From NCBI RefSeq assembly GCF_041242975.1, contig NZ_CP162488.1, forward strand, positions 3,152,001 through 3,216,000: a stretch of DNA of 64,000 nucleotides. Reading direction: 5' to 3'. The position numbers and the translations under genes were made by a program. Positions 23,561 through 64,000 of this stretch are shown here, piece after piece (within the stretch, counting starts at the first letter, position 1; the number at the start of each line of letters is the position of its first letter). Source of the stretch: Xanthomonas sp. DAR 35659 (GTDB lineage Bacteria > Pseudomonadota > Gammaproteobacteria > Xanthomonadales > Xanthomonadaceae). The notes under the pieces are model-generated. The model was given only the letters and a program-made list of their open reading frames with translations. It was not told the DNA's origin and made no database searches.

Positions 23561-26500
23561 ATGAGCTGCGCATTGAAGCAACCGTTGTGGCACCCGTTGT
23601 CGGCTCCGCAGTTGGAAATGTGGTTCGCGCAGGCGTTCGAGCCGACCAATCCGTACTACGACGTCCGTGGCTACCTGGAGATCCATGCGGCAATCGATGT
23701 CCATGCCTGGCGCGAGGCGGTGGTCGCTTGCGTTGCCGAGACCGACGCACTGTGGTTGCATCTGGAAACCGGCGAAGCGGGGCCACGCCAGCGCGTGATG
23801 GAGCAGCCTCCATGCGTCGCCTTCGATGTTGTGGACGTGTCGACCGATCCCGATCCGCGCGCGCGCTCTCTCCGGCTGATACACGACAGAGCCGCACGCG
23901 TGCTGGAGCTGCCCTGCTCTCCGGGCGGCGCGCCCGCGTTCGAACATGCGCTGTTCAAGCTCGGGCCCGCGCACTACCGCTGGTACCAGCGTTATCACCA
24001 TGTCGCGATCGATGGCTATTCCTATTCGTTGCTGACCGCTCGACTGATCGAGCTGTACGACGCGAACAGGCGCGGCGCCCCGATGCCGACGCCCCGCTTT
24101 GGAAGCGTACTGGCGTTGATCGCCGAGGACGCCGACTATCGCGGGTCCGAGCGCTACGCCAAGGATGCGTCCTACTGGCTAGAGCGCATGCGGGGCGCCC
24201 CCGAACGCGTGGCCCTAGATGGCCGCGCACCGCGGACGACGCCGGGTTTCCATCGCAGCACCACCCCGCTGCCTACCTCGCTCGTGGAAGCGCTACTGCG
24301 CACCGAGGCGAGCAGCGGAATCAAGTGGCCGCAATTGATGACCGCCGCTGTCGCGGCGTATCTGCAACGCATCGCCGGGCGCGAACGCATGCTGTTCGAC
24401 TTCCCCGTTGCCTCGCGCTCGCGCACCAGCCGCGACATTCCCGGCACCGTCGCCAACGTGCTGCCGTTGTTGCTGGACTTTCCCGCCGATGCCACGCTGC
24501 AGACGGTCGCGACCGAGGCCTCGCGCGAGATCGGCCGCAGCCTGCGACATCAGGCCTACCGCGGCAAGGATCTGCTGCAGGCCATGGCCGACGGCGGCCA
24601 GCAGCGCTGTTTCGGTCCGCGCATCAACATCATTCCGTTCGATTACGCCTTCGATATCGAAGGTGGCAGTGCGACGGTGCATTCGCTTTCCAACGGCCAG
24701 GTCGGCGACGTGGCGGTGAGCCTGCAGGGAAAGATCGACCGGCCGGGGTGTGAGCTGCACCTCGACGGCAATTGCGAGGCCTACGCGCAGGCCGAGGTCG
24801 AAGCACACATGCGTCGTCTTCTGCGCTTCGCCGAGACCACCCTGACCTCGCCGGAACGCGCGTTGCGCGACATTCCGCTGCTCGATCCGCACGAGCGGCG
24901 GACCGTGCTGGAGACTTGGAACGCCACCACGCACGAGGTGGCGGTGGAGTCGGTGGCGGCCGCGTTCGCGCGCCAGGCCGCAGCGACGCCGGACGCGATC
25001 GCGGTGGTCGGCGAACACGTCGCATGGTGCTATGCCGAACTGGAGCGACGCGCGGATGCGCTCGCGCACGCACTGCGGCGGCACGGCGCCGCCGCCGAGC
25101 GCGGCGTCGGGATTCTGATGCAGCGCTCGCCCGAGCTGATCGTCGCGGTGCTCGCCGTGCTCAAGACCGGCGCCTACTACGTGCCGCTGCACGCCGCGCA
25201 TCCGGACGCCCGCCTCAGCGCCCTGCTGGCCCAGACCGGCGCGCAGTTGCTCGTCGCCGACGCGTCCGCGCACGGACGCAGCATCGCCGCCGCCCACACG
25301 GTGCGCGTGGACGCCTTCGGGTTCGACGTGGCCGAGCCCGACGACCGGCCCGCTGCCGCCATCCACCCGGAGCAGTTGGCCTACGTCATGTTCACCTCCG
25401 GCTCCACCGGCATCCCCAAGGGCGTGGCCGTGCGCCAGCGCGACATCGTCGCCCTCGCCCGCGACCGCCGCTTCGACCACGGCCATGCCACCGTCCTGCT
25501 GCATTCCAGCCACGCCTTCGACGCCTCCACCTACGAACTGTGGGTGCCGTTGCTGCGCGGGGGCCGCGTCGCCGTGCTCGATGCCGACGCCGGCGATGCC
25601 CGCGACTACCAGCGCGCCATCAAACGCCACGGCGTCAGCGCCCTGTGGCTCACCGCCGGCCTGTTCCACGAGTTCGCCGACGCCGCGCCGGACCTGTTCG
25701 CGCCGCTGCAGCAGGTGCTGGCCGGCGGCGACGTGCTGCACCCCGCCGCGATCCGCCGCCTGCAGGCCCGTCATCCGCGCCTGCGCATCGTCAACGGCTA
25801 CGGCCCGACCGAAACCACCACCTTCGCGCTCGCCGGCGCCGTCGAGCCCCTGGGCGAGGACGCCCCCAGCGTCGCGCTCGGCACCCCGCTCGACAACATG
25901 CAGGTCTATGTGCTCGACGCGGCCCTGCAGCCGGTGCCGGTCGGCGCGACCGGCGAGCTCTACATCGCCGGCGCCGGCCTGGCCCGCGGCTACCTCGGCC
26001 AAGCCGCGCTCAGCGCCGAGCGCTTCGTGGCCAATCCGTTCGCCGCCGGCGCTCGCATGTACCGCTCCGGCGACCTCGCCCGCTGGCGCGCCGATGGCCG
26101 CATCGACTTCCTCGGCCGCAGCGACCAGCAGGTCAAGCTGCGCGGCTTGCGCGTGGAGCTCGGCGAGATCGACGCGGCGCTGGCCGACCTGGGCGACGCG
26201 CCGGCCGCCACGCTGCTGCGCGAGGACCGGCCGGGCCAGAAGCAGCTCGTCGCCTATCTGGTCGCCGACGCGGTCGATGCCGATGCCCTGCGCGAGCGGC
26301 TCGCGCAACGTCTTCCGGCGTACATGCTGCCGGCCGCCTTCGTCGCCGTCCCCGCCCTGCCGCTGACCGCCAACGGCAAGCTCGACCGCCGCGCCCTGCC
26401 GGCGCCGTGCTTCGCGCCGGTCGCCGCGCGCGCCCCGCGCAACGCCGACGAAGCCGTGCTCTGCGAACTCTTCGCGCAAACGCTGGGGCTGGAGAACGTC

Positions 26501-26690
26501 GGCATCGATGACGATTTCTTCGGCATCGGTGGCCAGTCGCTGCTGGCCACCCGGTTGGTCGGCCACGCCCGGGCCGCGCTCGGCACCGAACTGAGTCTGC
26601 GCGACGTGTTCGAGGCGCGCACCCCCGAAGCGCTGGCACGCCGCTTGGCGCCCAGCCGGCACGCGCGCGCGGCGCCGACCGCGCAGCCGC
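23561..26690 (+). other. NRPS module 1: starter C - A (Val-like) - T
   Basis: The C domain (to about 24890) has HHVAIDGYS at residue 146 and is the most divergent of the set, as expected for an acyl-accepting starter domain. The A domain (about 24900-26410) reads D-A-Y-W-L-G-G-T-F-K at the ten pocket positions, close to the valine group (DAFWIGGTFK). The carrier motif is GGQS instead of GGHS. There is no E domain, so residue 1 stays L. The A domain is nearly identical to that of module 9. Confidence 0.8.
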
Positions 26691-63400: not shown

Positions 63401-64000
63401 CGGGGGCGACGGCGACGCCTGCCGCCCGCTCGCCCACGCCCTGTCGCTTGCCGCCACCACCGAAGACCGCAGCGCCGGCCCGGTGCTGTGCGCGACGTGG
63501 AGCTGGGCCGGCGAGCTGTTCGCCAGAGCCGATATCGAGCGTCTGGCGGCGCTCTGGTGCCAGGCCCTGCGCGCGATCGCCGCGCGCGCGGCCGAGTGCG
63601 CGTCCCTGCTGACCCCAGCCGACCTGGCGCTGGTGACGCTGGATCAAGCGCAGATCGACGCGCTGCAGGCCGAAGCCCCGCCGCTGCTCGACGTATGGCC
63701 ATTGTCGCCGCTGCAGCACGGCTTCCTGTTCCACAGCCTGTTCGAACAAGGCGGCGACGGCGAAGCGCAGACCGCCGAGCGCTACCTGGTCCAGTTGGGC
63801 TTCACCCTGCACGGCCCGCTCGATCCGCAGCGCCTGCGTGGCGCGGCGCAGGCGCTGTTGCAGCGCCATCCCAACCTGCGCGCCGGGTTCGCCCACCATG
63901 GCCTGCCCGCGCCCGTGCAGACGATCCCACGTCAGGCCGAACTGCCCTGGCATGAGCTCGCGCTGGACGGCGACGCCGCCGCGCGCAAGGCCGCGCTGGA
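51333..64000 (+). CDS. Non-ribosomal peptide synthetase, modules 8-10 and start of 11 (3' truncated)
   Basis: The frame is open from ATG 51333 to the window end (4,222 complete codons) with no stop. Translation begins [25 protein letters not shown], so it opens directly with a D-to-L type C domain that accepts the chain from the terminal E domain of the first synthetase. Order: C-A-T, C-A-T-E, C-A-T-E, then the first about 110 residues of another C domain. Carrier serines are at about 997 (GGHS), 2050 (GGDS) and 3581 (GGDS). All visible C and E domains keep HHxxxDG. By analogy with WAP-8294A2 synthetase 2, five modules and a thioesterase are expected in total; those parts lie outside the window. 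Start and stop overlap with the upstream gene implies coupled translation. Confidence 0.96.
54471..59060 (+). other. NRPS module 9: C (L-to-L) - A (Val-like, copy of module 1) - T - E
   Basis: The C domain has HHIACDG. The A domain is the second copy of the module 1 A domain and has the same pocket, D-A-Y-W-L-G-G-T-F-K. Similarity to module 1 stops at the carrier, which here is GGDS and is followed by an E domain ([15 protein letters not shown]). The same residue as position 1 is therefore expected, but in D form. Confidence 0.75.
55824..57455 (+). repeat. Long direct repeat, copy 2 (adenylation domain of module 9)
   Basis: Partner of 24881-26512. The sequence outside both ends is clearly different between the copies: the upstream C domains are of different classes and the carriers read GGQS versus GGDS. 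The adenylation unit alone has therefore been copied or homogenised. Confidence 0.92.
59061..63660 (+). other. NRPS module 10: C (D-to-L) - A (unassigned code) - T - E
   Basis: The C domain has HHILFDGWS. The A pocket reads D-A-A-I-I-G-E-I-W-K, which I cannot match to a standard code; small residues at 236 and 239 leave room for a large side chain. D-tryptophan is expected here by analogy. The carrier is GGDS and the E domain has HHLAVDG and ELEGHGRD. Two consecutive D residues (9 and 10) follow from the two E domains. Confidence 0.7.
63661..64000 (+). other. NRPS module 11: beginning of C domain (cut by window end)
   Basis: [20 protein letters not shown] marks the start of another D-to-L C domain, as expected after an E domain. 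Its HHxxxDG motif and the rest of the module lie beyond the window. Confidence 0.85.

Follow-up and report, generated by a model that had tools for sequence, protein, structure and literature searches.

Menaquinone-binding peptides form a small class of antibiotics active on drug-resistant Gram-positive bacteria. According to PMC12447380, lysocin E, WAP-8294A2 and WBP-29479A1 have six residues in common (Ser3, Gly4, N-Me-D-Phe5, Leu6, Glu8 and D-Trp10); the class has Lysobacter as its producer, and Dyella, Paracoccus and Pseudomonas are the sources of members that were predicted and then synthesised. The same text gives an [M+2H]2+ of 743 for WBP-29479A1 and its antagonism by menaquinone, not by ubiquinone, and PMC4657364 describes an 11-module cluster of Lysobacter antibioticus that is partly similar to that of WAP, with m/z 1508. 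A review places the fatty acid of lysocins outside the ring, and Dyella silvatica is the species named for silvmeb; one of the 28 loci scanned here, L030, is from Dyella silvatica. Our background on WBP-29479A1 is drawn from PMC9581180, PMC12447380, PMC4657364 and PMC13163355. Here we analyse a 64,000-base stretch of Xanthomonas sp. DAR 35659 (the window), which corresponds to bases 3152001-3216000 of a complete 5,415,250-base genome (single contig; 100% complete, 0.26% contaminated), and the nonribosomal peptide synthetase (NRPS) genes that begin in it. With a probability that we put at about 0.9, they belong to a complete WBP-29479A1-type biosynthetic cluster for an 11-residue menaquinone-binding lipodepsipeptide. 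Judged by its gene content, the cluster is complete and consists of an ABC exporter, a seven-module NRPS, a four-module NRPS with one thioesterase (TE), a pyridoxal phosphate (PLP) decarboxylase and an MbtH protein. A literature search found no report of such a cluster in a Xanthomonas, most of the listed papers being judged from their listings. The synthetase has an unusual mosaic history.

The synthetase is encoded by two overlapping frames on the forward strand, N1 (9263 residues from its ATG) and N2 (5426 residues), the second of which extends 3.6 kb beyond the window end. Pfam and motif scans divide N1 into condensation (C), adenylation (A), carrier (T), methyltransferase (MT) and epimerization (E) domains in the order C1-A-T, C-A-T-E, C-A-T, C-A-T, C-A-MT-T-E, C-A-T, C-A-T-E, and N2 into C-A-T, C-A-T-E, C-A-T-E, C-A-T-TE. 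The total is eleven modules (7+4) with one TE, and seven plus three modules are complete within the window. Past module 10 there are only the rest of module 11 and the single TE, and no module 12. The E domains are located in modules 2, 5, 7, 9 and 10. Pfam scans whose pieces cover both proteins found no methyltransferase outside module 5, and thus none in the last module, where WAP-8294A has N-Me-Val12. The HHxxxDG motif is intact in all 16 C and E domains, all 11 modules have a carrier serine motif, and the synthetase frames contain no internal stops. In a tree of the C domains, those that follow E modules (C3, C6, C8, C10 and C11) are separated from C2, C4, C5, C7 and C9, with the two groups supported at 99/98 and 100/99. 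This grouping gives the predicted D/L stereochemical pattern independent support. C1 stands apart from both groups on a long branch and is probably a lipoinitiating starter condensation domain. An initial annotation, made from the sequence by a model, had proposed two synthetases with seven and at least three modules, the same five E domains, a methyltransferase in module 5 only, a starter C domain and a stereochemical pattern for ten positions, all of which agree with the scans and the tree.

The adenylation codes were extracted by alignment at the GrsA pocket positions; nine positions were read and a final K was appended. For calibration, the codes of LesB from the lysocin producer are DVWHVGSIG (Glu8), DAWQFGLIQ (Gln9), DAAIIGEVW (Trp10), DAYFWGVTF (Ile11) and DFWNVGMVH (Thr12), and those of two named L. 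enzymogenes proteins correspond to WAP modules 8-12 (Glu, Asn, Trp, Orn, Val). Three further genomes (G153, G107 and G303) yield 12 codes each in an order that fits WAP-8294A2, and G287 yields 10 fitting codes. The Orn, Glu and Trp codes were assigned via position in known products, so these readings are a calibration and not an independent test. The codes of A4, A6 and A10 (Gly, Leu, Trp) form the Gly-x-Leu-x-x-x-Trp menaquinone-binding motif, and the codes, together with the MT and E domains of module 5 and the E domain of module 10, predict Ser3, Gly4, N-Me-D-Phe5, Leu6, Glu8 and D-Trp10, the six residues common to the class. The assignment of the predicted product to the menaquinone-binding lipodepsipeptides, which the initial annotation had proposed together with this motif, is thus well supported, as are its codes for Ser, Gly and Phe and its matching acidic pockets in modules 2 and 7 (DTEDIGVVDK and DTEDIGYVDK). 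The lysocin and WAP products that it named do not fit at positions 1, 9 and 11, where the window has Val, Val and a beta-type residue as in L. antibioticus, and not Thr/Ser, Gln/Asn and Ile/Orn. The order of the codes is the same as in L. antibioticus at 11 of 11 positions in genome G296 and at 10 of 11 in strain 13-6, module 8 of which lies outside the stretches read. With a C9 acyl chain, the WBP sequence from the literature has a computed [M+2H]2+ of 743.43, which matches the reported 743, and an [M+Na]+ of 1507.84; a C10 acyl chain with beta-Ala has a mass equal to that of the C9 form with Aba.

The nearest relatives of the end of the synthetase are also found in L. antibioticus. A query of module 11 and the TE (1307 residues) has nine matches at E <= 1e-240 among 395 genomes of the family, and besides the window's own genome two of them match the whole query, at 69% identity: L. 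antibioticus 13-6 and the 5.77-Mb genome G296, which is tied to the same species by an N2 with 99.98% identity to a protein bearing that name. Across 5275 aligned residues, the N2 of the cluster and that of L. antibioticus have 68.8% identity; for N1 the figure is 69% with each of the two L. antibioticus proteins. A11 shares the L. antibioticus code pattern IDWVxSx-D, and among the 28 loci from a scan of genome contigs an IDWV-type code occurs in a single forward-strand adenylation domain, that of L. antibioticus 13-6 (L012). The code of A11 lacks the Asp that holds the alpha-amino group and resembles the beta-alanine code; residue 11 is therefore probably a beta- (or gamma-) amino acid. A PLP decarboxylase gene directly follows N2 in both L. 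antibioticus genomes (76% identity), and a homologue, P0015 (67%), occurs in Eleftheria terrae, the organism that also holds the N2-like protein P0173. Homologues with 76% identity to the decarboxylase occur in Lysobacter sp. 1R34A and CA196. In a sample of the phylum, the window's own genome is the only one of 398 with this decarboxylase at E <= 1e-130.

Several points weigh against the assignment to the WBP type. Gene order, domains, codes, C-domain grouping, orthology and quinone gene content can be read from the DNA, and the exact residues, ring, lipid and activity of the product in this strain are predicted from them. Taken whole, N1 resembles the lysocin-type protein of G278 (80.1% over 8456 residues, with the first G278 module cut by a contig end) more than it does WBP N1 (69%). 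The G278 cluster (contig C23, L077-L079) encodes a second protein 83.6% identical to LesB, with the last module cut by the contig end. In neither of the two L. antibioticus assemblies are N1 and the full N2 seen together: they are on different contigs in 13-6 and about 640 kb distant in G296, where a rearrangement or an assembly fault may be the cause; in G296, N1 and a short N2-like frame are at 3.205-3.237 Mb, and the full N2 with the PLP gene is at 3.870-3.887 Mb. The 'Aba' of WBP-29479A1 is given without alpha, beta or gamma in the sources used. A PLP decarboxylase homologue of 66-75% identity occurs in six further genomes of the L. antibioticus genus group, and no adenylation domain was found in the surrounding 20-kb stretch in any of the six. 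An exclusive pairing of the decarboxylase with beta-amino-acid modules as a general rule was rejected on these six stretches, and the link of the enzyme to module 11 is therefore one of position, by which it may supply residue 11. In addition, the WBP cluster is called silent in its own host in PMC13163355, and module 7 has the backbone of an ornithine module, which leaves both Arg and Orn as candidates for residue 7.

The choice at module 7 defines the strongest alternative. If the module loads ornithine, the product would be D-Orn7-WBP, a new congener with a mass some 42 Da below that of the Arg form, which we regard as possible though the less favoured outcome. For a C9 acyl chain and Aba, the computed [M+2H]2+ is 722.42 with Orn7 and 743.43 with Arg7, and neighbouring forms that differ in acyl length lie 7 units apart. 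A7 forms a 100/100 clade with four WAP A7 domains, which load Orn by position, and is 85-87% identical to them, as against 67-73% to three Arg A7 domains. Tyr322 is also common to the window A7 and the WAP A7 domains, and the Gln214 and Ala333 of the window A7 are both absent from the Arg-loading A7 domains. Within 33 pocket positions, however, the window A7 differs from WAP A7 at four, and three of these changes (Gln214, Ile299 and Ala333) agree with the Arg-loading A2 domains in lysocin and WBP. Position 299 is Ile in the window; all six domains assigned Arg by position have Ile or Val there, and all nine domains placed with the Orn group (eight from WAP loci and one from G317) have Met. Arg is favoured over Orn at position 7, and the cationic residue is kept either way.

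The cluster may also be intact and yet silent or non-functional in this host, as the WBP cluster is described to be in L. antibioticus. We consider this unlikely, since the frames lack internal stops, the inspected motifs are intact, and an exporter and the only MbtH match of the genome are adjacent. In a WBP-type pathway, the starter C domain would join a hydroxy fatty acid to Val1, and the line would then add D-Arg2, Ser3, Gly4, N-Me-D-Phe5, Leu6, D-Arg7 (or D-Orn7), Glu8, D-Val9, D-Trp10 and the beta-type residue 11. By analogy with WBP-29479A1, the TE would close the ring of the 11-residue depsipeptide onto the fatty-acid hydroxyl, and the ABC protein presumably exports the finished peptide. 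As inferred from the family, the product would bind to the menaquinone of Gram-positive membranes, rupturing these, and the ubiquinone-using producer would be spared.

The nearest relative of the synthetase changes along its length when identity is calculated part by part (with no lysocin sequence for module 1). Module 1 and modules 9-11 with the TE are nearest to WBP (54-72%), modules 2-4 to lysocin (65-85%), and modules 5-8 to WAP or lysocin (74-87%, versus 67-76% to WBP); lysocin and WBP are equally close in the C parts of modules 2 and 9. Module trees were built from eight rows (the window, one WBP, one lysocin and three WAP sequences, and the outside rows G609 and G620 from order-level genomes). 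They join the window with lysocin in modules 2-4, with WAP in modules 5-8 and with WBP in modules 9-10, each at 100/100. Near module 9 the switch occurs within C9, around frame residues 1200-1230. Over E10 (roughly residues 3721-4081) the identities to the three lineages hardly differ, those to lysocin or WAP being often a little higher than that to WBP. The reading frames are open across the switches. The identity between the window and WBP is fairly even throughout, which therefore does not decide which lineage received the foreign modules. The A-T segments of modules 1 and 9 are near-identical copies, the result of either a recent copy or a gene conversion, to judge by the DNA; at the protein level A1 and A9 are 97% alike in the window and 77% in L. 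antibioticus G296.

As a tentative explanation, the synthetase may have been shuffled from three lineages (lysocin-like modules 2-4, WAP-like modules 5-8 and WBP-like modules 1 and 9-11), A7 may have been re-tuned from Orn towards Arg by a few pocket changes, and the PLP decarboxylase may make the beta-amino acid of module 11. If true, it would be a worked natural example of recombining these assembly lines. An assembly or contamination artefact is very improbable: an assembler could be misled by the near-identity of the module 1 and module 9 copies, but the genome is a single contig of high completeness and low contamination, no part comes near 100% identity to its nearest relative (the values are 54-87%), and the switches leave the reading frames uninterrupted. 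The least credible alternative is the synthetase of a 12-residue lysocin E or WAP-8294A2, which is favoured by the closeness of modules 2-8 to lysocin/WAP rather than WBP, the 80% identity of N1 to the lysocin type and the six shared core residues, but is refuted by the count of 11 modules with one TE and by codes at 1, 9 and 11 unlike both families, with neither the Orn11/N-Me-Val12 pair of WAP nor the Ile11/Thr12 pair of lysocin. The initial annotation had proposed this 12-residue plan with tandem thioesterases past the window and had named beforehand any count other than two further modules as refuting it; one module follows module 10, with a single TE. Its lysocin/WAP-8294A kinship stands for modules 2-8, and the product match goes to WBP-29479A1, which it had not named.

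The host is, by its aligned flanks, a Xanthomonas close to X. sacchari, in agreement with the first reading of the window as Xanthomonas-like: the flanks have 86-94% DNA identity to Xanthomonas sacchari R1. In that strain the same flanks are 321 bases apart, versus about 49 kb in the window genome. The module 11 and TE query gives some NRPS match in 14 of 20 genomes of the genus (own included), but no orthologue of the cluster in the 19 others, where the best match is 41% identical and scores 637.7 bits, versus 2914.7 in the own genome. In its empty site and patchy presence, the segment resembles a horizontally acquired island. The edges 20301-21600 and 68901-69400 share no direct 11-mer, and no mobility family was found among the few edge frames scanned, a scan that was not exhaustive. 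A tRNA-Pro at 18979 was rejected as the insertion site because it is inside the X. sacchari-matching flank. Another segment absent from X. sacchari R1, 2.4 kb long with a GGDEF-domain gene (71177-73612, window numbering continued), sits between the CocE hydrolase and proline genes. The quinone genes are consistent with ubiquinone use and self-sparing, as first proposed for the producer: ubiG is above its cut-off in the own genome (293 bits), menD reaches 54.8 bits, below its cut-off of 244.2, and mqnA has no match.

The exporter frame is open from 21581, and its likeness to relatives begins at about residues 50-54, so that the Met at 21734 is the likely start. The exporter is 73% identical at the protein level to that of the WAP locus of G153 and 72% to that of G317, a related locus with another code order. 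A frame at 21310-23556 was rejected as the ABC exporter for want of a family match, the correct frame being 21581-23506. The best NCBIfam match of the PLP decarboxylase is MfnA, below the cut-off of that family. A second NRPS locus in the same genome, at 2.597-2.649 Mb on the minus strand, has 13 adenylation domains in an order unlike that of the window, and seven of the 13 carry Asn-like or Gly codes.

Features of the WBP-type cluster and its surroundings; positions above 64000 continue the window numbering past its end, and residues are those predicted.
Feature	Position	Strand	Basis
Segment absent from X. sacchari R1	20491..64000, whole extent ~20491-69256	.	flank alignment
MsbA-type ABC exporter, directly upstream of N1	21734..23506	+	Pfam ABC_membrane + ABC_tran
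NRPS 1 (N1), modules 1-7, starter C first; Val, D-Arg, Ser, Gly, N-Me-D-Phe, Leu, D-Arg/Orn	23561..51352	+	frames, Pfam, motif scans, codes
C1, probable lipoinitiating starter condensation domain	23594..24904	+	domain scan, C tree
1.69-kb A-T segment, copy 1 (module 1)	24879..26571	+	97.2% DNA identity to copy 2
A1, DAYWLGGTFK, Val	24923..26443	+	code
A2, DTEDIGVVDK, Arg	28079..29626	+	code, pocket comparison
E2	29912..31168	+	domain scan, C/E comparison
A3, DVWHLSLVDK, Ser	32609..34192	+	code
A4, DILQLGLIWK, Gly	35792..37342	+	code
A5, DAWTIAAVCK, Phe	39011..40525	+	code
Methyltransferase domain, module 5 (best Pfam stretch)	40592..40924	+	Pfam
E5	42095..43405	+	domain scan, C/E comparison
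A6, DAMLIGAICK, Leu	44846..46399	+	code
A7, DTEDIGYVDK, Arg or Orn	48047..49618	+	code, pocket comparison
E7	49934..51007	+	domain scan, C/E comparison
NRPS 2 (N2), modules 8-11 + TE; Glu, D-Val, D-Trp, beta-amino acid	51333..64000, continues to 67613	+	frames, Pfam, codes
A8, DVWHVGSIGK, Glu	52671..54227	+	nine residues read are those of the LesB Glu module
1.69-kb A-T segment, copy 2 (module 9)	55822..57514	+	97.2% DNA identity to copy 1
A9, DAYWLGGTFK, Val	55863..57386	+	code
E9	57639..59000	+	domain scan, C/E comparison
A10, DAAIIGEIWK, Trp	60447..61979	+	code; LesB Trp module reads DAAIIGEVW
E10	62313..63584	+	domain scan, C/E comparison
C11	from 63690, past window end to 65024	+	domain scan
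A11, IDWVASV-DK, beta-amino-acid type; then T, one TE	65043-66572	+	code
PLP decarboxylase, 421 aa, follows N2	67658-68923		Pfam PF00282
MbtH gene	68955-69173		sole MbtH match in genome
CocE/NonD hydrolase, conserved flank	69257-71177	minus	

A WBP-type cluster in Xanthomonas, together with an apparent relative in Eleftheria terrae, widens the range of producers, and a mosaic with open frames shows which module joints evolution has tolerated, knowledge of use to engineering. The synthetase is most similar to that of WBP-29479A1 (WbpA/WbpB) of Lysobacter antibioticus, with which it shares the 11 modules split 7+4, the places of the E and MT domains, the one TE and the predicted residues at 10 or 11 of 11 positions, depending on Arg or Orn at position 7. 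In both L. antibioticus genomes, too, N1 is immediately preceded by the exporter (78%) and N2 is immediately followed by the PLP decarboxylase (76%). The differences are the host genus, the closeness of modules 2-8 to lysocin/WAP and the WAP-like backbone of A7. The lysocin E synthetase (LesA/LesB) has the six conserved residues, and modules 2-8 of the window are 65-87% identical to those of the lysocin-type G278, whereas it has 12 modules with Thr1, Gln9, Ile11 and Thr12. The WAP-8294A2 synthetase is 82-86% identical in modules 5-8, where it is the sister in the trees, and its exporter is 73% identical; it differs in having 12 modules (7+5), Ser1, Asn2, Asn9, Orn11 and N-Me-Val12, and modules 1-4, 9 and 10 are just 42-66% identical to those of the window. 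The NRPS P0173 of Eleftheria terrae, which together with P0015 appears to represent a WBP-type cluster in another lineage, has the same four-module N2 with a Val-Trp-beta ending and TE (59.3% over 5331 residues), whereas its module 8 has an Asn-like code (DGTKMGQIG).

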